Part shown: piece by piece, positions 32,050-59,991 of the stretch
Numbering within the stretch: position 1 is the first letter of the stretch
How the letters are laid out: every line of letters begins with the position of its first letter
Assembly: GCA_016190055.1 (NCBI GenBank)
Contig: JACPRH010000037.1
Location: 62,001-126,000, forward strand
Length of the DNA stretch: 64,000 nt
DNA from: Nitrososphaerota archaeon
GTDB taxonomy: Archaea > Thermoproteota > Nitrososphaeria > Nitrososphaerales > JACPRH01
Direction: 5' to 3'
Notes under the pieces: model-generated
The model's database searches: none
What the model was told of the DNA's origin: nothing
Seen by the model: the letters and a program-made list of their open reading frames with translations, nothing else
Position numbers and translations under genes: made by a program

Positions 32050-33282
32050 TTATTCGTGGAAGAGTGTCCAGCCTTTTGCGACTACATATCTTAGCCAGTA
32101 TCCTGCGAAGAGGGAGGTGATTATTGCGGTCATGACTAGCGTGGTGAATAATGTTTCGTTAATTATGCCTAGGTTGAACGCGACGGTGGCTAAGACGATT
32201 CCGGGTCCTCCTCGGGTGTTCAATGCTACTGTGAGGTTGATGGTTGATAACCAGTCTTTTCGCAGTATCTTTCCAGCTATTAGGGTTGCGACGCTTTTGA
32301 TTGCTGTTGAGAATAACAGGAAACCCAGAAAGAAGAGTGGGTTGAATTGATGGATTAGGTCTAGCTGCAGCCCCACTACAGCGAAGTAGACTGGGGTGAA
32401 GAAGGCTAGGGATACTGTCTTTATTTGCTTAGCCGCTTTTCCGAACACGTCGCTGGACATAGATGCAATTGCGATGCCGGGTAGGAATGCTCCGAACACT
32501 ATGTTGACGTTAAGCAGGCTTGCTACGGCAACGGAGGAGAAGCATAGGAAGAGCGCATACCTTGCTGGAGATGATTTGATGATGACGTTAGCCTTAGAGT
32601 TATAGACTGTTTTAGTCAGCCTTGGCAGAGTAAAGATAGCCGCAGCTAAGAAGCCAACAGTGATTGCGACAGTGGAAAGAATGCCGAGAAAAGATGGTGC
32701 CAACTCATTTGCTAGACCCGTGGCTATCGCTAAGGCCGCCCAGAGTATGATGTCTTCGACGGTCGCTACAGCTAACACAATTCTCGCGAAGTGAGTATCG
32801 ATGATTCGGAGGTCGATGAAGATCTTCGAAATTACTGGGATAGAGGTGACTGCGACAGCTATCCCGATGATGATAGCTAAGGACAGCGGGTTGCCTTTCG
32901 GGCCTAGGAACGGCGAGAAGTCGTAGAGAGATGAGGCGGCGACCCCGGCTACAAACGGTAGAGCAGTTGCTGATAACAGGATTAATGTGGCGAATCTCCG
33001 ATCCGCTTTTGAGAAGCCGCCCTGTATCTCAAGACCGGAAACAAACATCAGCAGGATGAGGCCGAACCACGAAACCATTGAGATGAGTTTTCCTTCAACT
33101 GCGAACGCATTGAATATCCAAGTGTAGAGGTTAGGGGCGAAGAAGCCGAGGAGAGTTGGACCTAACAGGAGTCCACCGAAGATTTCGCCGATGACCTTAG
33201 GCATCCCGAACCTGTCAAAGAGATAGCCTAAGCTTTGCCCTGAAAAGATAAGCAGAACCACTGCGATAAAGAGTCGCATCAA
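32050..33282 (-). CDS. Cation/proton antiporter (CPA2, Kef/NapA type)
   Basis: 410 aa, 12 TM; GQSLGYLFDRFGMPKVIGEIFGGLLLGPTLLG. Confidence 0.9.
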   Translation of the reverse strand: MMRLFIAVVLLIFSGQSLGYLFDRFGMPKVIGEIFGGLLLGPTLLGFFAPNLYTWIFNAFAVEGKLISMVSWFGLILLMFVSGLEIQGGFSKADRRFATLILLSATALPFVAGVAASSLYDFSPFLGPKGNPLSLAIIIGIAVAVTSIPVISKIFIDLRIIDTHFARIVLAVATVEDIILWAALAIATGLANELAPSFLGILSTVAITVGFLAAAIFTLPRLTKTVYNSKANVIIKSSPARYALFLCFSSVAVASLLNVNIVFGAFLPGIAIASMSSDVFGKAAKQIKTVSLAFFTPVYFAVVGLQLDLIHQFNPLFFLGFLLFSTAIKSVATLIAGKILRKDWLSTINLTVALNTRGGPGIVLATVAFNLGIINETLFTTLVMTAIITSLFAGYWLRYVVAKGWTLFHE

Positions 33283-33478
33283 CTCTTCATTGCTTAATGC
33301 GATAGATGCTGTATCCGTAGAGACTCACCTGAAAAAGATTAGATAACTATCGACAATCTTTGAAATAACCTTTTCCTGAAAGTGAACCGTTAAAAGAGCA
33401 GTTTAAGCTGTTTGCTAAGTGTATTTGTATAGGAGCAGCTGCTATTCCGCGTGTTAACGGGCTAGAAGGCGGTTCTTC

Positions 33479-35524
33479 TTACCGCTGGGTGATTTGTTTG
33501 GGGTTTCTGTAGCGTACGCCGTTTAGGAAGATGGATATACCGTCTATGTGTGCTTCCCAGTTTGTGCGTTCGCGTTCAGGTACTATGCCGAGGAGCATTT
33601 CGAGCATGTAGATTATTGCTCCAGTGGCCCAAGCTTGGGGAGAGTTGGCGGCGGGGTAGGGTGCTGGGAAGGCGTATTCACGTCTAGGGTAGCCTGCGAA
33701 CAGTTCCGGCAGGCGGTAGCGTGGGAATGCTGAGGCGGCCTCGAAGAGTGATAGCGCAATTGTCTTCGCCTCGTTGTAGAAGCCGTATTGAGCCATGCCG
33801 GCTGCGATTAGTGAGTTGTCGTGTGGCCAAACGCTTCCGTTGTGGTAGGAGAGTGGGTTGTACCGAATCATTTCTGTTGAGAGGGTTCTTATGCCCCAGC
33901 CTCCGAACATGTCTGGCTCCATCAGTCGCTTCACTACTTGAGGAGCTTTTACTTCATCGATGATGCCGCTCCAGAGGCAGTGGCCGGGGTTGGAGGTGAT
34001 GCTGTCCACCCTGTGTTTATGTTGATCCAGCGCCACGGCGAAGAACTGTTTCTCAGGCATCCAGAAGACTTCGTTGAATCTCCTCTTCAGATGCTCAGCT
34101 TGAAGCCTCAGATCGTCCGCTCGGCTGGTGTTTCCCAGAACCTTGTATAGATCAGCCATCTTTCGTTTAGCATCGTATACGTAGCCTTGAACCTCGCATA
34201 GAGCAATAGGCGGTGGCGCGAGCTTTCCGTTAGCGAAGGAGATTGAGTCTCTTGAGTCCTTCCATCCTTGGTTTCTCAACCCGTTCTTTGTTCTGAGCTG
34301 ATACTCTACGAAGCCATCGCCATCCATGTCTCCGTACTGATCTATCCAGTTGAGAGCTTTCTCTGCATGCGGCATGAGTTGTTGAAGCATCTTCACGCTG
34401 CCTGTCCATCGATATGCCTCCCAGAGGAGTACTAGGAAGAGAGGTGTCGCATCTACGCTGCCGTAGTAGCTGGAGTGCGGAACAACTTCGAGGAGAGATA
34501 GCTCGCCTTTGCGTACTTCGTGAGGAATCTTGCCGGGTTCAGCTTCACGAAAAGCATCGTACTTCGCTGCTTGAAGGCTTGCAAGCGTGTATAGCGTACC
34601 TATCATAAACTCGGGTCCGAGTATCTTTGTCTGTATCGCGGCGATAGTGGAGTCTCGGCCGAAGAGAGTCATGAACCACGGGACACCGGCGGCCAAAATG
34701 TAGTAGCCCGGTAGGTATTCGAGTCTGAGGGCTCTGAGATCCGCTAAAGCCTGCTGGTATGTTTGGCGGAGATCAATGTAGTCTGTCTCCAGTCTGGGTA
34801 AACTGTATTCGAACGGTGCTTCACGCACAATCCGTCTAAGCGATTCTATTCGGTTTTCTTCGCTTGGCCTGTAGGGGCTGAATGGGGAGCCTAAGATGTC
34901 TTGTACGCAGCTCGTCGGTTTAGGTGGAGCTCCTACGACGGGGAGGATGGTTACACAGGTTTTCCATACTCCTTTTGGGGGAAGGTTCACGTCGAAGATT
35001 GAGGTTCTGCCGCGTACCTGTGGCTCTGCTGAGAACTTTACCCAAGTTTCCCTAGTGAACTCTCCTCTTTGGTAGTGTAGACAGAGATCTTGACCGTCTC
35101 TTTCCTCAACGGTTACCTTTCCTTCTTTGCTGAGCGCGGGGCCTAAACGTACTTCGAACACGTCTGCGAAGTCAGCGTCACATGTTATCGAAACCTGCAG
35201 TGAACTGGTTTTAGTGGTGTGGTTCATTATGTAGATGTCTTCGTATAACCCGTTGCTTACGTATCGGTCCCGTATGACGCTGAAGGCTGAGGAGGGGAGT
35301 TTTCGTGTTCTTCTTGAGCTTGCGTAGAAGGTGGCCATTGAATGGTCAAGCTGATTCGCTCCTACGGGCTCCAGACTGAGCCCTTCCAAGGCTAGTCCGA
35401 AGTTTGAAAGGAAGCGAGTATCGTGGGCGTAGAGTCCTTCAACGGTCCTTGACCTGATATTCCCAGCGCGGCTAGATACCGCGAAGACAGACTCTTCTAT
35501 TATCGTTATATGGTCTGAATCCAA
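33479..35524 (-). CDS. Glycogen debranching enzyme / amylo-alpha-1,6-glucosidase (GH63/GH133-like)
   Basis: 681 aa; GLYAHDTRFLSNF N-domain; GVPWFMTLFGRDSTIAA; NGSVWPHDNSLIAAGM. Confidence 0.9.
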   Translation of the reverse strand: MDSDHITIIEESVFAVSSRAGNIRSRTVEGLYAHDTRFLSNFGLALEGLSLEPVGANQLDHSMATFYASSRRTRKLPSSAFSVIRDRYVSNGLYEDIYIMNHTTKTSSLQVSITCDADFADVFEVRLGPALSKEGKVTVEERDGQDLCLHYQRGEFTRETWVKFSAEPQVRGRTSIFDVNLPPKGVWKTCVTILPVVGAPPKPTSCVQDILGSPFSPYRPSEENRIESLRRIVREAPFEYSLPRLETDYIDLRQTYQQALADLRALRLEYLPGYYILAAGVPWFMTLFGRDSTIAAIQTKILGPEFMIGTLYTLASLQAAKYDAFREAEPGKIPHEVRKGELSLLEVVPHSSYYGSVDATPLFLVLLWEAYRWTGSVKMLQQLMPHAEKALNWIDQYGDMDGDGFVEYQLRTKNGLRNQGWKDSRDSISFANGKLAPPPIALCEVQGYVYDAKRKMADLYKVLGNTSRADDLRLQAEHLKRRFNEVFWMPEKQFFAVALDQHKHRVDSITSNPGHCLWSGIIDEVKAPQVVKRLMEPDMFGGWGIRTLSTEMIRYNPLSYHNGSVWPHDNSLIAAGMAQYGFYNEAKTIALSLFEAASAFPRYRLPELFAGYPRREYAFPAPYPAANSPQAWATGAIIYMLEMLLGIVPERERTNWEAHIDGISIFLNGVRYRNPKQITQR

Positions 35525-35716
35525 CTATTGTCACTCTCTATGTATGTGGTGATGATGGTTGTAATTGCGTGGACTGAGGACAGTCATTGCGGTTAGTTCA
35601 CGTCAATTTTTCTGGACTGGGGTTGGATTTCGGCCATTAAAGTTTTAGGGTTGTCGGGCGCTATCGTGATATTCATCTGCAGCGGCTCACTCACTTACTT
35701 ACCTGCTTGCTCCTAG

Positions 35717-36931
35717 TTAGATGCAGCGGCTGTATAGGTCGAGTAGCCGTGGGAGAACTGCGTCTACATCGAAGTTTTGTTTCACCCATTTCCTTCCTGC
35801 CTGCCCCATCTGTCGAGCCTTTTTCTTATCTGAGAGGAGCTTTATGATGTTTTTTGCGGTGCTCCAAGGATCGTTCGCAGGCACTAAGACGCCGGTTTTG
35901 CCGTCAAGAACAACCTCCGGCACACCATTGTCGATTGAGTTAGCTCCGATGACAGGTTTCCCAGCTGCCATTCCTTCTAGGAAGACCATGCCGAAGCATT
36001 CGGTTGGGCCGAGGCTGACAACCATGTCGGAGGCTGCGAATACTGACGGTATCTGTTCTTGAGGTAAGTCGCGGTCTAAGAATAGAACGCTGTCTTTAGC
36101 GCCAAGTGTGGAGGTTGTTTGCACGATGGCCTCCCTTATTTGGCGCACGACGTCTGGGTAAACGGGATCATTTCCGATTAGGAGAAGCTTAACGTTACGT
36201 ATCTCCCGCTTCACTAAGGGCAAAGCTCTTAGCAGTATCTGCAGGCCTTTCCCATCCTCGTATTTGAACGAGTTTTTCTCTCTACCTACGAGTCTAGACG
36301 GGAATAGGATAATGGGTTCGTCATCGTCCACTCCGAGCATCTTTCGTATATTGCTGCCGTCTGCGTTAGCGAACTTGTCTGTGTCAAGAGTGTTCGGGAT
36401 GACCTCGATTTTGCTGGTTGGGACGCCGCCTTTTATGAGGTCGAATGCTGATTTAGAGGTTAAGGCAACTACCTTCGAGAAGGGAAGATACGATAGCAGG
36501 TAGTGGGCGAAGGGGTCTTCGGTGGTGTTATGTATTGTGTCGATCATCGGAGGCTGTCTTGTATTAGCTCCTTGTAGGAAGCTAATGAGGAACATTGCGT
36601 ACTGCTTCATCTGATAGTTGTGCAGATGGATGACATCCACATCTAACTCGCTGATAATTTGTTCAAAGAATTTTGAGACGTTCTTAGGTTTGAATAGGTT
36701 AGCGTCGATGGCTCCTGTTTCAGGGACATCAAGCAGATTTGTTCTAATCACTTCTACACCTTGAAGATGCTCTCGCTCAGGGCGGTTTGCGACGCTGCTG
36801 GTGAGAACGGTGGGGTTATGGCCGTTCTTCACAAGTCCGATTGATGTTTCGTATACTACGGATTCGACTCCGCCTATTACAGGCACGAAGAAAGGTGTGA
36901 TGTAAAGCACATTGAGATTTTCACAGGGCAT
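35717..36931 (-). CDS. Glycosyltransferase family 4
   Basis: 404 aa; FVPVIGGVESVVYETSIGLVKNGH, GLQILLRALPLV, ECFGMVFLEGMAAGKPVIGA. Confidence 0.93.
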   Translation of the reverse strand: MPCENLNVLYITPFFVPVIGGVESVVYETSIGLVKNGHNPTVLTSSVANRPEREHLQGVEVIRTNLLDVPETGAIDANLFKPKNVSKFFEQIISELDVDVIHLHNYQMKQYAMFLISFLQGANTRQPPMIDTIHNTTEDPFAHYLLSYLPFSKVVALTSKSAFDLIKGGVPTSKIEVIPNTLDTDKFANADGSNIRKMLGVDDDEPIILFPSRLVGREKNSFKYEDGKGLQILLRALPLVKREIRNVKLLLIGNDPVYPDVVRQIREAIVQTTSTLGAKDSVLFLDRDLPQEQIPSVFAASDMVVSLGPTECFGMVFLEGMAAGKPVIGANSIDNGVPEVVLDGKTGVLVPANDPWSTAKNIIKLLSDKKKARQMGQAGRKWVKQNFDVDAVLPRLLDLYSRCI

Positions 36932-37475
36932 CTCTCAACAGCCCCTAATCCAAAGCATGTTGATGAACCTCGCATCTGCACTACAGCACCAACTACCGCC
37001 CTCAACTGAGATTGCTTCCTTTCCCATTGGTGATCTGATTTCGCTCAACAAACTTGTTTTAGATAGGCTGCCTCCTTTATTACAAATCATATAGTGATTA
37101 TATGGCCAGCCAGTTACATGTGTTTTGCGTTAAGTTCTCACTCAGGAAGAAGCTAAGACGAAGCTGCCTAGGAAAGGGCGCATCTTGCGACCAACTTATA
37201 CATTTGTAGTCTGGTTAGATGCGGGATCTGTCCAGTTGTCTGAATAGCGCGTTGTCTACGCGAGTATGTTCCTAGGCTTGACAAAGTTTCGGTAAACTTC
37301 TAGTTTCTTGAGGACTTGGGCAAGAATAACGCTTTGTTTCTTTTTTTGTGAATGTTTACCGTTCTGAAGTGAACTAGCCCCTAGACATAGTTTTACGCAC
37401 GGCGAGTAATTTTTCTCGCCCAAAAGTATGAATGATCAGGCACGAACTTCAAAACGCTAAACGTGTACCTTTTTT

Positions 37476-38324
37476 TTAGCTAATTTCGCCGGAGATATAA
37501 GCACAAGTTTTTGCTTCGCAGGGAGCGCAGAGGACTTTGCTGGCGGGGCCTTGCTCTATCATTTCACCTAAGTAGAGGAAGATGGCATGGTCGGCTATTC
37601 TTCGAGCTTGGCGGAGAGTGTGGGTCACCAGTACGATTGTGTAGTTTTGCTTCAGCATCTGGAACTGCTCCTCAATGAGGCGTGCTGATACAGGATCTAG
37701 GGATGAGGTAGGTTCATCGGCGAGGATAACTTCAGGTTTGACTGATAATGTTCTGGCGAGTGCTAGCCTCTGTTGTTGTCCTACTGATAGCTTTGAAGCT
37801 GGCATACGCAGTCTATCTTTAACTTCGTCCCATAAGCCTGCTAAGCGCAGGTAGCATTCTACAAGCAGATCCATCTCGCCGTTCTTGTGTGTTCGAGCCG
37901 TGTTACGCGTGTTCGCAGGGCATACTTCATTGTTAGGGCAGTGCTTCTCAAGCTCCTCTATCTGTTCAAGAATTTGCTTACCTTTGACTCCGTGAATTCT
38001 TGGGCCGAATGCAATATTATCATAGATTGACATCGGTAGTGGGCACGGTTTCTGCGAGAGGAAGCCGACTTTCTTCCTGAGAGAAAGAATATCGGCCTGG
38101 GGGTCGTAGACGTTGTCACCATCTATCAGAACCTTTCCATTTACTTTAACCTCCTCCTGTAGCTCAATGAGGCGGTTCAGGCTCTTGAGAAGAGTAGTCT
38201 TACCGCATCCCGAGGGGCCGATTATTGCGGTGATTTGACCATCTGGAATATCGACTGTTATGTCCTTAAGCACGTTATGGGCTCCGTAGCTCACCTTTAG
38301 ATTACGTATACTGATATGTGGCAT
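37476..38324 (-). CDS. pstB: Phosphate-type ABC transporter ATP-binding protein with Cys-containing insertion
   Basis: GPSGCGKTTLLKSLNRL, LSVGQQQRLALARTL, DEPTSSLDP; next to pstA/pstC. Confidence 0.9.
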   Translation of the reverse strand: MPHISIRNLKVSYGAHNVLKDITVDIPDGQITAIIGPSGCGKTTLLKSLNRLIELQEEVKVNGKVLIDGDNVYDPQADILSLRKKVGFLSQKPCPLPMSIYDNIAFGPRIHGVKGKQILEQIEELEKHCPNNEVCPANTRNTARTHKNGEMDLLVECYLRLAGLWDEVKDRLRMPASKLSVGQQQRLALARTLSVKPEVILADEPTSSLDPVSARLIEEQFQMLKQNYTIVLVTHTLRQARRIADHAIFLYLGEMIEQGPASKVLCAPCEAKTCAYISGEIS

Positions 38325-38353
38325 AACTTACACAAACACCTACCATACTCTAC

Positions 38354-39220
38354 CTATCTTAAGATATGTTTAGAGAACCTCTGTCCCAGTGCTCTCGAAG
38401 CAACGCTTACTACAAGAACGATTACCAGCAATACAAGCGCCGAGGCATAGGCGCGTTGTTGTACTTCAGGGAAGGGTGTGCCTAGCTGGAAGAAGATGGC
38501 TAGTGGCAGGGATGCAGCTGGATCTAGAAGTGATCCCGGTATATTATCAGTGTAGCCTGCGGTGAAGAGTATTGACGCAGCGTCTCCGATGCTTCTGCCG
38601 AAGGCTAAGAGTACCGCTGTTGCTATGCCCGGTAGCACCTGTATTATCACGATCTTGAAGGTTGTTTCGAATCTTGTTGTGCCCAACGCGTAAGATGTTT
38701 CCTTCAGCTCCGCAGGAACCAGTTTTACTGTCTCATCTATTGCGCGAATCATTATAGGGATCTGTAGGAGCGTCAAAACGATTATTCCTCCGAGCAGCGA
38801 TGCCCTCATACCTAGGTAGAGCATCACGGTGAAGCCGAATGCGCCGTATACTATTGATGGTGTGCCCCATAAAACATCAAGGGAGAGACGGATAGAGTAT
38901 GCGACCTTTGTCTTCTTGATGTAATCTCTCTGTAAAGAAAGAGCGGCTGGTATGCTGATCAGTAAGGCTAGAAGGACGCTTCCGAAGGCTAGGTAGATTG
39001 AGCCTATGATTGCGTTGAGGATTCCACCTTCTTTTCCTAGATAGTATCCGCCTTTAGGTGTCTGAGTTAACATGGATGGTGTTAGGGCTGGAGCTCCGTT
39101 CAAAACTACTACAGCTACAACTGCAAAGAGGCTTCCTACGACCATAGTTAATGAAGAGAGCATCAGAACCTTGAAGAGTCGCTCTTCAAGTAGCCTATCC
39201 AACCGTAACCCTCCGCTCAA
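38354..39220 (-). CDS. pstA: Phosphate ABC transporter permease
   Basis: 288 aa; LDVLWGTPSIVYGAFGF, GRSIGDAASILFTAG. Confidence 0.92.
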   Translation of the reverse strand: MSGGLRLDRLLEERLFKVLMLSSLTMVVGSLFAVVAVVVLNGAPALTPSMLTQTPKGGYYLGKEGGILNAIIGSIYLAFGSVLLALLISIPAALSLQRDYIKKTKVAYSIRLSLDVLWGTPSIVYGAFGFTVMLYLGMRASLLGGIIVLTLLQIPIMIRAIDETVKLVPAELKETSYALGTTRFETTFKIVIIQVLPGIATAVLLAFGRSIGDAASILFTAGYTDNIPGSLLDPAASLPLAIFFQLGTPFPEVQQRAYASALVLLVIVLVVSVASRALGQRFSKHILR

Positions 39221-40118
39221 TTCTTATCAGTATCAGTCGAGCCGCAAGCGTGAACATTAGGATGATAAGCAGCAGAATAAGAGCGGCTAGAAGAAGTGCA
39301 GAGTCGTACAATGGGATGGACATCATCTCACCATAATTATTGGCGATAAGCGCAGGCAACGGGTACGCGGGGTCAAACACCGATGATGGTACAATGAACA
39401 CGTTGCCCACGACCATAAGGACAGCCATAGTTTCCCCTAGTGCACGTGAAAATCCTAAGATTACTGCAGCAGCTATCCCGGGCAAAGCGACTCGCATCAA
39501 AGCGTGCTTCACAGTCTGCCACTGAGTAGCCCCCATGGAAAGAGAGGCCTCTCTGACCTCAAAAGGCACGGACCTAAACACCTGCACAGTAATCGAAATA
39601 ATAACGGGGAAAACCATTATTGCAAGCACAATACCACCAGCCAGAAGGCTGAAACCTGTGGAATATCTTCCTGCGCCTGCAGCTGGTATCCCGAGACTTC
39701 CGACAACCGGTGCGATATATGCGACGAATGGAACAATAGTAAGTACACCCCATACGCCGTAAACCACAGGCGGTATTCCTGCGAGCAGATCTACCAGTGG
39801 TAGAACTCTTCGTCTAAGACTCTCCTTAGCGTACTCTGCAAGGTAAATTGCGCTTAGAATGCTAAGCGGGACAGCTATCATCATCGCTATAGCGGTTACG
39901 TAAAGCGTACTTAGAATCGCCGGGTAGAGCCCGAAGCTACCTTGAGAGGGCAACCAACTGCTGTTAAGAAGTAATTCCGAAAGAGGCTTGGTGTCAAGAA
40001 TAGGTTTTGATCGCAGGTAAAGCGCGAGTATAACTATGAATGCAAGACTACCCGCGAAGGCTGCGGCGACCAGCATCACACTGCTTGAAAGGGTATCCTT
40101 AAGTCGTCTAATCCGCAC
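39195..40118 (-). CDS. pstC: Phosphate ABC transporter permease
   Basis: 307 aa; LLAGIPPVVYGVWG, FSRALGETMAVLMVVGN. Confidence 0.92.
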   Translation of the reverse strand: MRIRRLKDTLSSSVMLVAAAFAGSLAFIVILALYLRSKPILDTKPLSELLLNSSWLPSQGSFGLYPAILSTLYVTAIAMMIAVPLSILSAIYLAEYAKESLRRRVLPLVDLLAGIPPVVYGVWGVLTIVPFVAYIAPVVGSLGIPAAGAGRYSTGFSLLAGGIVLAIMVFPVIISITVQVFRSVPFEVREASLSMGATQWQTVKHALMRVALPGIAAAVILGFSRALGETMAVLMVVGNVFIVPSSVFDPAYPLPALIANNYGEMMSIPLYDSALLLAALILLLIILMFTLAARLILIRIERRVTVG

Positions 40119-40120
40119 TG

Positions 40121-40375
40121 TTATTCACTCCGCTGGTTAATTGAGCATTCCTCGTTGCAGTAGAGACATACATAGTACTTTTGCCTCATATCATTGAAAT
40201 TGTGCTTTACCTTTAGTAGGTTGCAGCTCTTCAGTTTTCTAACTGCGTGGTTAACCGTCCTTTTAGGTAGCGATGTTTCTTTTATGAGATCCTTTTGGGT
40301 GATTTGCCCCTTTTCTGTGAGAACCTTGAGAACTAGTTTTGTTGAGGGTGAGAGTTGGTCAACAAAGTAAATCAC
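40121..40375 (-). CDS. Small winged-helix (MarR-like) regulator
   Basis: 84 aa; LSPSTKLVLKVLTEKGQITQKDLIKETSLPKRTVNHAVRKLKSCNLL. Confidence 0.85.
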   Translation of the reverse strand: MIYFVDQLSPSTKLVLKVLTEKGQITQKDLIKETSLPKRTVNHAVRKLKSCNLLKVKHNFNDMRQKYYVCLYCNEECSINQRSE

Positions 40376-40455
40376 TATTCACTCTTATCGTCACTGCTCG
40401 CTCTTCCCGCCCTCTTGAAATATAACGGAGTTATAAATATTTATTAGTTCCTGAG

Positions 40456-40525
40456 GATTCTGTCCCATTATCGGGTGATCACGCAAAGTCAGCAAGCATA
40501 CATCACCCGAAGATGGGACAGAAGT
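40456..40525 (-). mobile_element. 70-bp MITE-like hairpin element, copy 1 (inverted relative to copies 2 and 3)
   Basis: Exact reverse complement of 43596-43665 and 59856-59925; TIR TTCTGTCCCAT/ATGGGACAGAA. Confidence 0.9.
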
Positions 40526-40590
40526 GACGAGACAGCTCGAACGCTAATTAATAATTACTCTCTGCCTAACTAACCGACTCGAACAACCAA

Positions 40591-41298
40591 TTACTTCTTG
40601 TGTAGGCCGCACTCGCTGGCTTCTCGTGGCTCCCACCACCATCGGCCCGCACGAGGATCTTCTCCGGGTTTAACTGCGCGTGTACAGGGTTCACAGCCTA
40701 TACTCGGATAGCCGTTGTCGTGAAGCGCATTGTAGAGAACATTGTTGTTTCGAATGTATTTCCAGATGTCTTCTGATGTTTGATCGGCTAATGGGTTAAT
40801 CTTGATTATACCGTTGTGAAGCGCGTCAACCTCTACCTTCTGCACTGCTACTCTTGTTGATGCCTGATCTCTTCTCAAACCTGTTATCCAAGCGTCGAGA
40901 TCTGAGAGCGCTCGCTTTAACGGCTCAACCTTCCTTACTTCGCAGCATAGTTTACGCAGCGCCATACTCTTGTAGAAGAGGTTTAGGCCGTGGCTTCTAG
41001 TCATCTCCTCCAGACGAACGGTATCCGGATAGAATATCTCAAAGTCGCCGTACTTTTCCTGTGCCTTATCCATTAGATCGTATGTTTCTTGGTGAAGCCT
41101 CCCTGTTTCAAGAGCGAAAATTCTTGCGTCAGGATTTATTTTCCTAAGCATGTCGGTCAATACCATGTCCTCGGCTCCGAAGCTAGAGGCAAGCGAGATC
41201 TTCGGATGGAACTCACTTAGTGCCCATTCAAGAACCTGTTGAGGAGATTTTTCTTCAAGCCGTCGATTCAAACCTTCTACATCTAATGTTCTAGACAT
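40591..41298 (-). CDS. cysH: Assimilatory APS reductase-type CysH (4Fe-4S)
   Basis: 235 aa; KLCCEVRKVEPL and CEPCTRAVKPGEDPRAGRWWWE...ECGLH (CC...CxxC of Fe-S APS reductases). Confidence 0.9.
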   Translation of the reverse strand: MSRTLDVEGLNRRLEEKSPQQVLEWALSEFHPKISLASSFGAEDMVLTDMLRKINPDARIFALETGRLHQETYDLMDKAQEKYGDFEIFYPDTVRLEEMTRSHGLNLFYKSMALRKLCCEVRKVEPLKRALSDLDAWITGLRRDQASTRVAVQKVEVDALHNGIIKINPLADQTSEDIWKYIRNNNVLYNALHDNGYPSIGCEPCTRAVKPGEDPRAGRWWWEPREASECGLHKK

Positions 41299-41394
41299 GT
41301 AGTCACTTCCTGCAGGGATGCAACGTCATTATAAGCGGTAAATAACCATTACACAGACCAGTCACGTCATTGTTGAACGTCGAGTATCTCATTT

Positions 41395-42450
41395 TTACCC
41401 AACCCTTCTCAGTGAGTCATCAACGGTTTCCTTGGGCAGTTCGATGTAACCCGCCTCGTCAACAAACCTCTGACCCTCAATAAGCACCCATTTAATGAAC
41501 TCCTTTTCAAGCCCCGAAGGTCGGTCTTTCGTCACGAAATATTCCACTCTGGCAGGTGGGTGTGGAAATACGCCGCTCTTTATCGCCTGAACAGTTTTTG
41601 CCTTTGTGCTGATATCCTCGTTCGAATCAACCTTACCGTTCTTATCTACGTCGAACGGAGCGATCTTTACGCCAGCGATGGGCAGCCCACTCTTCATATC
41701 AAACACATAATTGTAGTTGTTGTAACCAATACCAAGAGGATCCTTCTGCACGGCCGCTAGAACTCCCGGATCGCCGTATACGCCTATGCCCTTCAGATTC
41801 TCCTGTTTCTTTCCAAGATATTTCGCCCAGATTTCAGGTGCGCCGGCCGCGTCACTCCTAGTGTACACGTGTATCTCGTCTTTTATCTCCGGCCTCCCAA
41901 CCACTTCACCCCAAGTTTTGATGGTTCCGTCGATGAAGATGCCGATGAAAACCTCTCTGGTAACTCCTCTGGTTTCGATGTCATTCAATACTGGGTTTTT
42001 AGAGTTAATTGTAGCAACTACTGCGTCCTTTGTCACAACAATCGGATAAGCGCCTTTAGCTACCTCAGCTGGATCAATATCTCTTGAGACCATACCGATA
42101 TCAACTAGGCCGCCTAATGCATCAGCCATACCTTTTCCTGCGCCTCCGGCTGAAACCTCCACCTTAACATTTGGATGCAGCTTCTGGAACTCCTCGCCCC
42201 AAACAACGGTCATCGGATATAACGCCCAAGCACCTGACAATGTAACTTGCCCCTGAAGCTCTTCGAGAGGTTGTGCGCTAGTGGTGTTACTAGAGATGCT
42301 AGTGGTGCCTTTGGATTTATCTTGGGACGGTTGAGGAGGGGATGCAAGGTATAGTGATACCAGCCCTATTGCGAGAATTAGAATCGTTGCTAAGATGAAT
42401 TTGCTTCGACTTCTCGCAAACGTAGTTTTGGATGACATCTTGTTCGTCAT
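41395..42450 (-). CDS. pstS: Phosphate-binding PstS-like ABC substrate-binding protein
   Basis: 351 aa; LSGAWALYPMTVVWGEEFQKLHPNVKVEVSAGGAGKGMADALGGLVDIGMVSRDI; TATATAA box about 20 nt upstream of ATG. Confidence 0.88.
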   Translation of the reverse strand: MTNKMSSKTTFARSRSKFILATILILAIGLVSLYLASPPQPSQDKSKGTTSISSNTTSAQPLEELQGQVTLSGAWALYPMTVVWGEEFQKLHPNVKVEVSAGGAGKGMADALGGLVDIGMVSRDIDPAEVAKGAYPIVVTKDAVVATINSKNPVLNDIETRGVTREVFIGIFIDGTIKTWGEVVGRPEIKDEIHVYTRSDAAGAPEIWAKYLGKKQENLKGIGVYGDPGVLAAVQKDPLGIGYNNYNYVFDMKSGLPIAGVKIAPFDVDKNGKVDSNEDISTKAKTVQAIKSGVFPHPPARVEYFVTKDRPSGLEKEFIKWVLIEGQRFVDEAGYIELPKETVDDSLRRVG

Positions 42451-42502
42451 CCGAGAGCATAACGCCGTTATATATCACTTTGGAAAGGTGCCAATGACTC
42501 TA

Positions 42503-42660
42503 TTACCTTAAGTGGAACGCATACTTACAGATTATACCACTCTATCCCATAGTCGCTTCCAGCTGGCTAATGGGATATCGGTCGAACTATTGGCCGAAAG
42601 ACCATTACATATCAGCGTTGAGGTGGTATAGACAGCTAATCTGTGACCCACTTAAGGTTA
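42503..42660. repeat. Approx. 158-bp nested inverted-repeat element upstream of pstS
   Basis: Outer arms ACCTTAAGTGG (42505-42515)/CCACTTAAGGT (42648-42658); inner ACAGATTATACCACTC vs GAGGTGGTATA...ATCTGT; hairpin TATCCCAT (42543-42550)/ATGGGATA (42570-42577). Confidence 0.75.
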
Positions 42661-42759
42661 TGCGTTAAGCACATATCTCGCTGCTGCCTTGCATATTGCT
42701 TGAGTAGGCTGTTCGCTTGCACACCGTCTCGTGAAGTAGTATTACGACGCTCTTCTGCT

Positions 42760-43362
42760 CTATTTTGATTTTTGTCTTGTCGCCAATATTGCTGCTACTA
42801 TGATGGCAATCGTTGCGACCGCTGCGGCTGCGTATGTGATTGGAGCTATTGTTTCCGCTGTCTGTGTAATAATTGTTGATAGTGTTGTTGTGGCCGGGGT
42901 CAGTGTAGATGTTATTGTTGTTGTGGTTGTTGGAGCAGTTTCAGTTTTTGTGCTCACACTTGTGGCTGTTGTTGTGGTTGTGATGGTTGTTGGGCGGATA
43001 GTTGTGATCGTTTTTGTCTCCGTTGTAGTGACTGTGTTTATGCTCTGTGCCAGAGGGCTTAGGGTTACATCCACGGGGACTGTAGCATCAAACGGAACAT
43101 TAACAGTTTGACTCCACTTTTCGTACCCCTCCCGAATGACTGTTACATTAATGAGCGCTGGATGCCCGATTACGTAGGTTATTGGGGCGCTTCCCACGAG
43201 GGCGCCATCTAAGTATACATTAGCTCCCGGAGGAGTGCTGCTCACAATGATAGTGCAGTGGCTGGCGTAAACCGGCTGGCTCAACAAACTACCCATAAGA
43301 ATCACTGATATCGAGATTACTGCAATAACTTCAAATATTTGTGAATTCTTCAATTTCATCAA
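42760..43362 (-). CDS. Exported PEGA-domain protein with Thr-rich stalk and C-terminal TM
   Basis: 200 aa; CTIIVSSTPPGANVYLDGALVGSAPITYVIGHP...GYEKWSQTVNV; Thr-rich stalk; C-terminal TM. Confidence 0.85.
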   Translation of the reverse strand: MMKLKNSQIFEVIAVISISVILMGSLLSQPVYASHCTIIVSSTPPGANVYLDGALVGSAPITYVIGHPALINVTVIREGYEKWSQTVNVPFDATVPVDVTLSPLAQSINTVTTTETKTITTIRPTTITTTTTATSVSTKTETAPTTTTTITSTLTPATTTLSTIITQTAETIAPITYAAAAVATIAIIVAAILATRQKSK

Positions 43363-43415
43363 TATTAATTACGATGGATTAATAGAAAAAGATTCCGCCG
43401 CATACCTATGGGCTC

Positions 43416-43579
43416 TTACCTTAAGGGGCGTTCTCTCCCAAGCAATATGTGGTTTTGATGATTATCCGAGAGAGGAGCTTCTGTATTATGTATACCATCA
43501 TTTGGTTTTTGTGGGTTTGAGTCGGGCCTAATACCTTCAGCTAATCGACACCGTCAAAGAGGTGCTGACCTTAAGGTAA
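43416..43579. repeat. Approx. 164-bp segment bounded by inverted TTACCTTAAGG arms
   Basis: TTACCTTAAGG (43416-43426) and CCTTAAGGTAA (43569-43579); same terminal core as 42503-42660. Confidence 0.5.
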
Positions 43580-43595
43580 CGCCACCGCTCAGGAA

Positions 43596-43665
43596 ACTTC
43601 TGTCCCATCTTCGGGTGATGTATGCTTGCTGACTTTGCGTGATCACCCGATAATGGGACAGAATC
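43596..43665 (+). mobile_element. 70-bp MITE-like hairpin element, copy 2
   Basis: ACTTCTGTCCCATCTTCGGGTGATGTATGCTTGCTGACTTTGCGTGATCACCCGATAATGGGACAGAATC. Confidence 0.9.
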
Positions 43666-43701
43666 GTCTCGTCCTATGTCAGCTCTGTTGCTTAGCCTAG
43701 A

Positions 43702-44862
43702 CTATTCGACGAAGGGATTCTTGAATTTTAGTATCGCATCAGCTACTTCTGGCCGCATTATTTCTGACGGCGGTCTGAGACCTTGTACTATCATGTCTCG
43801 CATTTTTGTGCCGCTGAATCCTACTCGGTCTTGTCCGGTGTGAGGGCAGATTCTCTCGTTAACTATGGTGACGCATCTTTTGCAGTAGAAGAACTCGCGG
43901 AAGAACACGGGAGTTACTCCGAGGTCCGGGAACTCCTTGAAGATTTCTTGAGCGTCGTATGGACCGTAATAATTACCTACGCCTGCATGATCCCTGCCCA
44001 CTGCGAAGTGTGTGCATCCGAAGTTCTTTCGAATTATCGCGTGTAAGATAGCTTCTCTCGGGCCGGCGTATTTCATTTCGTAGCGCAGTATGCTCATGAC
44101 TGCTGTGTCTTTCTGGTAGTAGTTGTCGATTAGACTCTTGTAGGCCTCCACTATCACTTCATCCTTGAAGTCGCCCTGCTTCTTTCTGCCTATGACCGGA
44201 TTTACGAACACGCCGTCTATGAAGGCTAGAGCTGACTTTTGAATATACTCATGCCCTATGTGAGGAGCATTTCTAGTCTGGAATCCCACTATCGTCCGCC
44301 AACCCTTCTCTTTGAAGAGAACACGGGTTTCTGCCGGGCTGAGTGTATAGTGTTCGAAGGGATTCTCCACATCTTTGAACATTTCAATCTGCCCCCCTAT
44401 CAGCAGATCTTTTAGTTGGTGAACTCTAGCTACACCTGGATGCTTTGGATCAGTGGTTCTGAAGACCTTCTCAGAGTACTCTTGCTTATCAAACCCGTAA
44501 ATATCTTCGACATGCATCACTGCCAGCGGCACGTTTCCCGGAGCGCTCAAAGCTATAGTGTCACCCGCTTTTACGTCCTTAACAGCCTCTCTTGACACAT
44601 CTAGGACGATTGGGATAGTCCAAGGTAGGTCGTTTGGTAGCCTCATTTCATCTAGAACAGATCTGTATGCTTCATTATTCATGAAGCCTTCCAAAGGGCT
44701 GTATACGCCGTGAGCGATGCTCTCGACGTCAACCGCTGACTCGTAACTCAGCTCTACCATAGGTAGTTCGTTAACTTCCCCAAGTAGAACGTTCAGCCTA
44801 TTACTTGTAGCAACCTGGTTTACTAGCTTTCCACCATGTACTCTTGAAACCATTAAACTCAA
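43702..44862 (-). CDS. sat: Sulfate adenylyltransferase (ATP sulfurylase)
   Basis: 386 aa; GFQTRNAPHIGHEYIQK, GRDHAGVGNYYGPYDAQ. Confidence 0.95.
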   Translation of the reverse strand: MSLMVSRVHGGKLVNQVATSNRLNVLLGEVNELPMVELSYESAVDVESIAHGVYSPLEGFMNNEAYRSVLDEMRLPNDLPWTIPIVLDVSREAVKDVKAGDTIALSAPGNVPLAVMHVEDIYGFDKQEYSEKVFRTTDPKHPGVARVHQLKDLLIGGQIEMFKDVENPFEHYTLSPAETRVLFKEKGWRTIVGFQTRNAPHIGHEYIQKSALAFIDGVFVNPVIGRKKQGDFKDEVIVEAYKSLIDNYYQKDTAVMSILRYEMKYAGPREAILHAIIRKNFGCTHFAVGRDHAGVGNYYGPYDAQEIFKEFPDLGVTPVFFREFFYCKRCVTIVNERICPHTGQDRVGFSGTKMRDMIVQGLRPPSEIMRPEVADAILKFKNPFVE

Positions 44863-44868
44863 CCTCTA

Positions 44869-45111
44869 TTAGAGATAACCTAAACTCTTGAGTCTCTGTT
44901 TAATATACTCCAGCTCAACCGGTGTAATATACTCGGTTAGCTGATCTGCTTCATATCTGGAGATATCTTCGCGTAGGCGAGAGAGCACATATTCAGAAAT
45001 GGAATCGAAGCCTTTCTCCTTCATTAGATGCTCTGCTCCCCCAAGAAGGGTTTTTGGAATAGATACCGCCGAGGCTTTAGATTCTTTATCGCTCTTCCCA
45101 GATAGGCTCAT
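44869..45111 (-). CDS. Small RHH/CopG-like protein upstream of sat
   Basis: 80 aa; VSIPKTLLGGAEHLMKEKGFDSISEYVLSRLREDI; same strand, 6 nt from sat. Confidence 0.7.
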   Translation of the reverse strand: MSLSGKSDKESKASAVSIPKTLLGGAEHLMKEKGFDSISEYVLSRLREDISRYEADQLTEYITPVELEYIKQRLKSLGYL

Positions 45112-45262
45112 GGTCTCTTTCGCCTGATCGCATAATATAATTAACCTTTGGCAAAGGAGCCAAAATAAAGTATGTCTGCAATCACCTGCATCTAGGCTAG
45201 TAATTTGTCTAGGCGTTGCTTACGCTGATGCAAACTCGGTATTTTAGAATGATGTTTTTTTT

Positions 45263-45311
45263 GGAGTTCGGGAAAACCGAAAGACAAAACTCAAAAATCG
45301 CCTTTTCCTCG
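45263..45311 (+). promoter_or_regulatory. htrA promoter/leader block homologous to PepSY-operon promoter; contains TTCGG-GAAAA-CCGAA (45267-45281)
   Basis: 45/49 identity by eye to reverse complement of 55407-55455. Confidence 0.85.
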
Positions 45312-45332
45312 TTAATGACAGTGGAGAAGAGA

Positions 45333-46562
45333 ATGATTCGACGAAATATGGCTGTAAGCAAGGTAATTATCGTTGTCGCATTAGCTGTAATATTCTCAGT
45401 AGGGCTTCTCGCCGGACAGGTGTTGAACCTCGGGTTGAAACCTGCAGTAGAATCGCCAACTGCGACTAGCATAACATCCTCGTCAACAATAGCTACAGGT
45501 ATTGCTAGTACTAGCAGCACCACAACAACATCATCTTCGTCCTCGGTTTCTTCAACGACGCTTTCAACCACAACTACTACACAGGCCATCTTAGGGGATC
45601 TTACACCGCCTCAAATCTTCAAGAACGTCGAAGGCTCGGTTGTATCGATAGGCGTAACGTTACCGGGCGGAGAGGCACAGGGATCGGGCTTCGTGTTCGA
45701 CAATAAAGGTGACATTGTAACCAACAACCATGTGGTTGAAGGAGCTACAACAATTGATGTAACCTTCTTGAACGGAGACACCGTTACGGCGAAGCTTGTT
45801 GGCAGAGACGCATATGCGGACTTGGCGGTGATACAGGTTGACACAAGCTCTAGACAGTTGAAACCTGTGCCTTTAGGTGACAGCGATAAGCTGCAGGTGG
45901 GTGACCAGATCTTGGCGATAGGTAACCCATTTGGCCTCAGCGGTAGCATGTCAGCGGGAATAGTAAGTCAGCTTGGCAGAGAAACTCAGGGCACAGGCGG
46001 TTACATGATTATAGATCTGATCCAGATAGATGCAGTAGTTAACCCCGGTAACTCAGGTGGACCTCTCCTAAACATGAGGGGCGAAGTCGTCGGAGTTAAC
46101 ACACTCATCTTCTCTCAGTCAGGCGGCTTCGAAGGAGTCGGCCTATCCATTCCATCCAACACCGTGAAACGCGTAGCCACCTCACTGATATCTACCGGCC
46201 AATACAAGCACGCCTACTTAGGAGTACAAGGTACCGATGTGACACCTCAGATAGCTGACGCAATGAATCTAAGTCAAGCCAAAGGCTTTCTCTTAATGCA
46301 GGTCACACAGGGAGGACCAGCTGACAAAGCCGGTCTAAAAGGTGGAACAACTCAGACAACCATAGCTGGACAGACCGCCGTGCTGGGAGGAGACGTAATC
46401 ATAGACATAGACAATACAAACGTCAGAAAACTCTCCGACCTCTCGCTCTACACTGAGCGCAACAAGAGTCCCGGTGACACAGTGACTCTGAAGATTATTC
46501 GCGACGGCAAAGAAATGTCGGTTAACCTAGTGCTAGGCGAAAGACCTCAACCCGCAGGATAA
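45333..46562 (+). CDS. htrA: HtrA/DegP-like membrane-anchored serine protease with PDZ domain
   Basis: Listed from 45216; ATG at 45333 after GGAG likely. TNNHVVEGA (His), YADLAVIQVD (Asp), NPGNSGGPLLN (Ser), C-terminal PDZ, Ser/Thr-rich linker after TM. Confidence 0.93.
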   Translation: MIRRNMAVSKVIIVVALAVIFSVGLLAGQVLNLGLKPAVESPTATSITSSSTIATGIASTSSTTTTSSSSSVSSTTLSTTTTTQAILGDLTPPQIFKNVEGSVVSIGVTLPGGEAQGSGFVFDNKGDIVTNNHVVEGATTIDVTFLNGDTVTAKLVGRDAYADLAVIQVDTSSRQLKPVPLGDSDKLQVGDQILAIGNPFGLSGSMSAGIVSQLGRETQGTGGYMIIDLIQIDAVVNPGNSGGPLLNMRGEVVGVNTLIFSQSGGFEGVGLSIPSNTVKRVATSLISTGQYKHAYLGVQGTDVTPQIADAMNLSQAKGFLLMQVTQGGPADKAGLKGGTTQTTIAGQTAVLGGDVIIDIDNTNVRKLSDLSLYTERNKSPGDTVTLKIIRDGKEMSVNLVLGERPQPAG

Positions 46563-46569
46563 CCGGCCG

Positions 46570-46599
46570 CTTTCTTTTTTTAAACTTCTTTTCTTTTTA
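46570..46599 (+). terminator. T-rich archaeal-type terminator after htrA
   Basis: CTTTCTTTTTTTAAACTTCTTTTCTTTTTA in the + strand between convergent genes. Confidence 0.5.
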
Positions 46600-46683
46600 C
46601 TGTCTACTCTGTTCGCTAATTGGTTGGCTAGATAGTAGCTGACTTGACCGTTCCAGCTTACTTCTTTTTGCTCGCTTACTCAT

Positions 46684-59829: not shown

Positions 59830-59855
59830 TAGGTAGGCAGAGAAGCGGAACTGGT

Positions 59856-59925
59856 ACTTCTGTCCCATCTTCGGGTGATGTATGCTTGCTGACTTTGCGT
59901 GATCACCCGATAATGGGACAGAATC
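59856..59925 (+). mobile_element. 70-bp MITE-like hairpin element, copy 3
   Basis: Identical to 43596-43665. Confidence 0.9.
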
Positions 59926-59991
59926 GCGCGTCGAAGTAGTTAACTTATATAGCCCTCACGCAGGGGTGTTGTTAAGGCTCGGTGTACAAAC

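Follow-up and report, generated by a model that had tools for sequence, protein, structure and literature searches.

A 70-bp mini-transposon caused a 3.1-kb flip in the genome of a Nitrososphaerota archaeon, probably, and most simply, through one-step intramolecular replicative transposition. We analysed a stretch of 64,000 nucleotides (hereafter the window; contig JACPRH010000037.1, positions 62,001 to 126,000) from a 2.21-Mb draft genome of 63 contigs whose assembly is 87.5% complete (G000), alongside G001, its sole same-genus relative among the genomes searched. On the assembly the inversion is real and, as the alignments indicate, derived in the window's lineage.

Table 1. Features of the inversion and of the third identical element in the window
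Feature	Position	Strand	Basis or remark
Target duplication A, TTCCTGAG, outer flank of copy 1	40448..40455	+	G001 homology ends inside
MITE copy 1 (E), 70 bp	40456..40525	+	sequence and hairpin fold
Target duplication B, inverted form GACGAGAC, inner flank of copy 1	40526..40533	+	
Inverted block, 3,070 bp, with cysH, pstS and PEGA-domain gene	40526..43595	.	alignment to G001
cysH-type (phospho)adenylyl-sulfate reductase	40591..41298	-	
pstS-type phosphate-binding protein	41395..42450	-	PF12849; NCBIfam best family, score under cut-off
PEGA-domain protein	42760..43362	-	PF08308; absent at corresponding place in G001
Target duplication A, inverted form CTCAGGAA, inner flank of copy 2	43588..43595	+	
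MITE copy 2, 70 bp, identical to copy 1	43596..43665	-	
Target duplication B, GTCTCGTC, outer flank of copy 2	43666..43673	+	
Third identical copy (59856-59925), GAACTGGT-E'-GCGCGTCG	59848..59933	-	breakpoint vs G001 C2/C10

The block is bounded by two copies of the element, with 70/70 identity between 40456-40525 and the reverse complement of 43596-43665. Copy 1 lies in the context TTCCTGAG-E-GACGAGAC (40448-40533) and copy 2 in the context CTCAGGAA-E'-GTCTCGTC (43588-43673), and the four 8-mers form two pairs of exact reverse complements. The original prediction had placed two 70-bp elements with swapped 8-mers here, and its coordinates and letters were exact on recheck. Its reading of the 8-mers as exchanged target duplications is likewise upheld; the chance that an 8-mer at a random position in the window finds such a reverse-complement match is 1.6e-5, and the chance for both is therefore ~3e-10. 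When the flanks of 24 related elements from G000 and G001 were compared with one another, exact cross-matches between different copies occurred in two exchanged pairs only.

The element has imperfect terminal inverted repeats (GATTCTGTCCCATTATCGGGTGAT / ACTTCTGTCCCATCTTCGGGTGAT; 22 bp, 91% complementary), contains no ORF and folds into a single hairpin (z = -7.7). An Rfam search gave no match, and identity with a known RNA is therefore unsupported. Searches with E returned nine matches in G000 (four of them identical, five diverged) and eight in G001. An alignment of 14 copies drawn from both species shows a length of 70 bp in nearly every case and gives the consensus GGTTCTGTTCCATTATCGGGTGAT...ATCACCCGAAGATGAAACAGAAGT. 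Two clean related copies and both exchanged pairs give a target duplication of 8 bp. Being short, ORF-less and multicopy, with 8-bp duplications and ends in common with an autonomous element described below, it is classed as a miniature inverted-repeat element (MITE); a REPIN/IS200-type hairpin was ruled out by the target duplications. A TIR-pattern scan of GTDB genome contigs yielded a single, chance-like match in a bacterium. A different 70-bp MITE with IS6-like ends forms an inverted pair ~1.06 kb apart on G001 C3 (stretch L120, 8338-8407 and 9465-9534), flanking a cation-efflux-type gene and adjoining a possible tRNA; its 8-mers are neither clean nor exchanged.

Alignment to G001 gave the polarity of the flip. 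Window segments 33000-37126, 37474-40450 and 43666-46617 align to the minus strand of G001 contig C2, whereas 40527-42495 aligns to its plus strand between these flank matches, at 89% identity, and the aligned breakpoint sites of G001 carry no element at either end of the cysH-pstS block. At site B, G001 reads CAAGCT-GTCTCGTT-CTGTG, a lone 8-mer identical at 7/8 positions (one substitution). At site A, its homology continues through TTTATTAGTTC and ends within the duplication, because the adjoining segments differ: the window continues into the PEGA-domain gene and repeat remnants, and G001 into a thioredoxin-like ORF. The inversion that had been read from the swapped flanks is thus independently confirmed by an opposite block orientation in the relative, and the flipped-back order, as had been proposed, is taken as ancestral because G001 shows that order without the elements. 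A synteny check for an element-free relative with the present gene order found the reverse order instead, in G001. A further genome, G004, was set aside for polarising the order, as it has cysH and lacks sat in the stretch examined.

In the ancestral order, as reconstructed from this alignment, wHTH-pstCAB and pstS-cysH point away from each other, while cysH and sat converge; in G001 pstS is divergent from wHTH-pstCAB, with the thioredoxin-like ORF between them. In the present window order, sat, PEGA, pstS, cysH, wHTH and pstCAB share one reading direction. The original prediction that the inversion explains why cysH splits pstS from pstCAB holds in that the inversion placed cysH there, but pstS and pstCAB were already apart in the ancestor; the net change is that pstS is now co-directional with pstCAB, with cysH between.

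Several further observations concern this block and its surroundings. The palindrome ATAACGNNGTTAT occurs at 40422-40434 and 42459-42471, just 5′ of wHTH-pstCAB and of pstS, and its longer form has 4 strand matches in the window against 0.03 expected; it recurs 5′ of the pst and wHTH genes in G001 and of cysH in G004, and it is probably a phosphate-type operator. The inversion breakpoint lies ~14 bp past the palindrome, and each gene has retained its own palindrome copy. G001 C14 carries a second pstS (77% identical) and a second wHTH gene (stretch L028, 6450-8339) with several palindrome copies and an IS6-like transposase nearby. Regulators of archaeal type in the window match MsvR, Sta1 and Lrs14 models. 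Between pstS and the PEGA gene, 152 bp (42507-42658) with inverted CTTAAGTGG ends is 99.3% identical to G000:C8:82839-82990 and is another young short inverted-repeat element. A remnant at 43413-43580, ~10 bp from site A, resembles the ends of a ~690-bp insertion at G001 C10:111977-112668.

The third copy in the window belongs to a second exchanged pair. Its partner (G000:C40:15654-15723) has the context GCGCGTCG-E'-GAACTGGT, with the 8-mers exchanged relative to window 59848-59933. In G001 the left flank of the C40 copy (to C10:111432) and the right flank of the window copy (from C10:111439) are neighbours, and these two flanks, joined over one 8-mer, align to G001 without a gap; G001 therefore has an element-free, contiguous site X. 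The left flank of the window copy at 59856 aligns instead to another G001 contig, C2, ending at position 91502, and DNA beyond the other site of this pair, Y, gave no real match in G001. Given that the flanks are split over C10 and C2, the second pair also marks a rearrangement breakpoint, and this rearrangement may, depending on the orientation of C40, have been an inversion too.

A pattern search of G001 found a 2,490-bp element (C12:438457-440946) that agrees with the MITE consensus in 19/24 positions at one end and 21/24 at the other, including the asymmetric CATCTTC / CATAATC cores, and has a clean 8-bp duplication, CTTCCTTG, on either side. Its tips are GG; the cTGTt motif is found in the MITE consensus GGTTCTGTTCCA, whereas the 2,490-bp element itself has ATTGCTT / CTGCTT. 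Besides passenger ORFs, this likely parent encodes a 387-aa transposase with an N-terminal zinc-ribbon match, whose best Pfam match is PF13610, the IS240/IS6 DDE domain (57.9 against a cut-off of 27), and whose best NCBIfam match, the IS6 model, scores 107.5, below the cut-off of 125. Its length is outside the 213-254 aa range of IS6-family transposases and is comparable only to the long bacterial IS6 clades (PMC7986276). An intact matching transposase was not found in the 87.5% complete G000 assembly, whose three PF13610 matches are all short or broken. A second G001 element (C16:76018-80504; stretch L110, 4018-8504), 4.5 kb long with GGTTCTGGTGCG ends and the clean duplication CTTCACCA, encodes a 394-aa IS6-like transposase and ORFs resembling a DNA methyltransferase, and is, by these features, a predicted IS6-like element with cargo.

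An IS6 element that transposes replicatively in trans to a target within its own molecule inverts the stretch separating the two, which ends up bounded by two inverted element copies (PMC7986276, Fig. 6 legend); the target is duplicated in inverted orientation, and each copy has one original and one target flank (PMC7986276). The window has this structure, its inverted copies each combining an old 8-mer with a new one, and the segment is inverted relative to the element-free state of G001, as replicative inversion predicts. We propose that E is a non-autonomous element mobilised by an IS6-like DDE transposase that acts in trans and makes 8-bp target duplications. A lone copy would first have resided at site A or site B, and its ends would then have attacked the other site, at a distance of ~3 kb within one chromosome, in a copy-in reaction of "trans" geometry. 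This single step would have doubled the element, inverted the intervening DNA and left either copy with an old 8-mer on one side and a new one on the other. The pair at window 59856 and C40 would stem from a second such event or from a larger rearrangement.

The main alternative, to which we give a real but clearly smaller probability, is that two separate E insertions of opposite orientation at A and B, each with its own 8-bp duplication, were followed by homologous recombination that inverted the block. This was the history originally predicted; it is possible and reproduces the observed flanks exactly, but it is not required, as one copy-in step gives the same result. Clean insertions of related MITEs are found in G000, so precursors for recombination do arise, which counts against the one-step route, and 40-50 bp of homology is enough to target recombination in Sulfolobus acidocaldarius (PMC3139894); this route is thus open, and 70 bp could suffice. 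However, it needs three events rather than two at pair 1 and likewise at pair 2 (over both pairs, four insertions and two recombinations against two insertions and two inverting jumps), and none of the four identical copies (0/4) is a clean A-E-A or B-E-B survivor, although neither point is decisive. Further points against the one-step route are that G000 yielded no intact matching transposase, that the G001 transposase falls below the NCBIfam IS6 cut-off, and that replicative movement has not been demonstrated for archaeal IS6-like members (PMC6807381). As both routes yield an identical final sequence, the choice between them is one of inference; the one-step route is favoured because it is economical, is expected of the IS6 family and fits with neither pair having left a clean copy, and we consider a replicative event a better explanation than two prior insertions that later recombined, with reasonable though not strong confidence.

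An assembly error behind the inversion is unlikely. Two clean insertions in the ancestral order could have been crossed over by the assembler at identical 70-bp copies, four of which might confuse a short-k assembly in a 63-contig draft, and the uninverted order would agree with G001; but none of the four identical copies lies at a contig end, the assembly bridged a repeat with an exact stretch of 82 bp (window 42577-42658 against C8), longer than E, and two closed swaps arise in 3/24 random mispairings of four copies, leaving the artefact only a slim chance. A programmed or ongoing switch, in which the elements serve as recombination sites flipping the block for regulation, is scarcely credible: identical inverted sites do bound a block of probably regulated genes, but these sites have target duplications and are members of a dispersed MITE family, none of the genes recognised in the block is of recombinase type, and G001 lacks the sites. 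A flip by a tyrosine recombinase of the Thermococcales type was ruled out, there being duplications and no evidence for a site-specific recombinase.

We compared the flanks of 24 related elements of G000 and G001 with mismatched controls. Perfect 8/8 duplications flank 4/24 elements (C23:1333, C7:24588 and two full-length G001 elements), 4/24 form the two exchanged pairs, and the flanks of the other 16/24 match at chance level, with no clear intermediates between perfect and chance-level flanks. The four identical G000 copies all lie in exchanged pairs, with a clean duplication of their own at 0/4. Mutational decay alone predicts intermediates, given that the element bodies are still ~80% alike, and a better fit is that one side was rearranged or lost; wrongly placed ends in degenerate copies may contribute to the unmatched flanks. 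Such a class of 16 elements would follow from jumps that frequently delete or invert adjoining DNA. When exchanged partners were sought for these 16 older copies, no exact match emerged. The one case with a single mismatch (G001 C12:244573 left, C17:155274 right) was discarded, as the other sides disagree. The G000 C12 copy was considered as a deletion mark: it has the same-strand order as G001, which holds ~2.5 kb extra there, but 100-140 bp is unaligned on each side and the case is suggestive only. The G000 C53 copy sits in a scrambled region. We hold only tentatively, at somewhat less than even confidence, the broader proposal that this 70-bp element of an archaeal IS6-like family is a copy-in mover and a recurrent cause of chromosome rearrangement in the lineage, most of whose copies in both species mark old inversions or deletions.

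A single genome thus holds two pairs with exchanged duplications, and for each of them a relative has an ancestral site free of the element; this is naturally occurring evidence that archaeal IS6-like elements rearrange host DNA, and A/B and X/Y are concrete sites for telling one-step copying from two-step recombination. A 70-bp element can thereby reorder sulfate-reduction and phosphate-uptake genes, here all onto one strand.

The inversion resembles IS6/IS26 intramolecular replicative transposition, which in cis gives deletion and in trans inversion (PMC7986276), in its 8-bp duplication, its inverted copies bounding the inversion and the old and new flank of each copy, and the element shares ends with GG...CTG (PMC7986276). 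Unlike in IS6/IS26, the presumed mobile unit is an archaeal 70-bp MITE, and its transposase, of which no intact copy was found in G000, would act in trans. With archaeal IS6-like elements of clades a-d (PMC6807381) the family shares an IS6-like DDE domain, going by the PF13610 match, as well as 8-bp duplications, relatively long TIRs of at least 18 bp and GG or GA tips; by contrast, the listed Pyrococcus and Sulfolobus transposases have 215-237 aa (PMC6807381) against 387 aa in the likely parent, which also has an added N-terminal part (the zinc-ribbon match), a length of 2.5 kb and passenger ORFs. A 2019 survey found no experimental data on the movement of archaeal IS6-like elements (PMC6807381). 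The parent transposase is also reminiscent of the IS1 family in its N-terminal zinc-ribbon match and a partial NCBIfam IS1 match (69 bits). IS1 target duplications are mostly 9 bp. Every clean copy here has an 8-bp duplication instead, and the best Pfam match is the IS240 DDE domain; a GGnnnTG tip is common to both families (PMC6807381). The two IS6-family MITEs in ISfinder, of 227 and 336 bp (PMC7986276), likewise consist of two IS ends with no ORF between, whereas the present element is only 70 bp long, has ~20 recognisable copies across two species of the genus and is tied to rearrangement breakpoints. Events of this kind have precedents in bacteria; what appears to be new is the element, its host and the connection with an archaeal IS6-like transposase.
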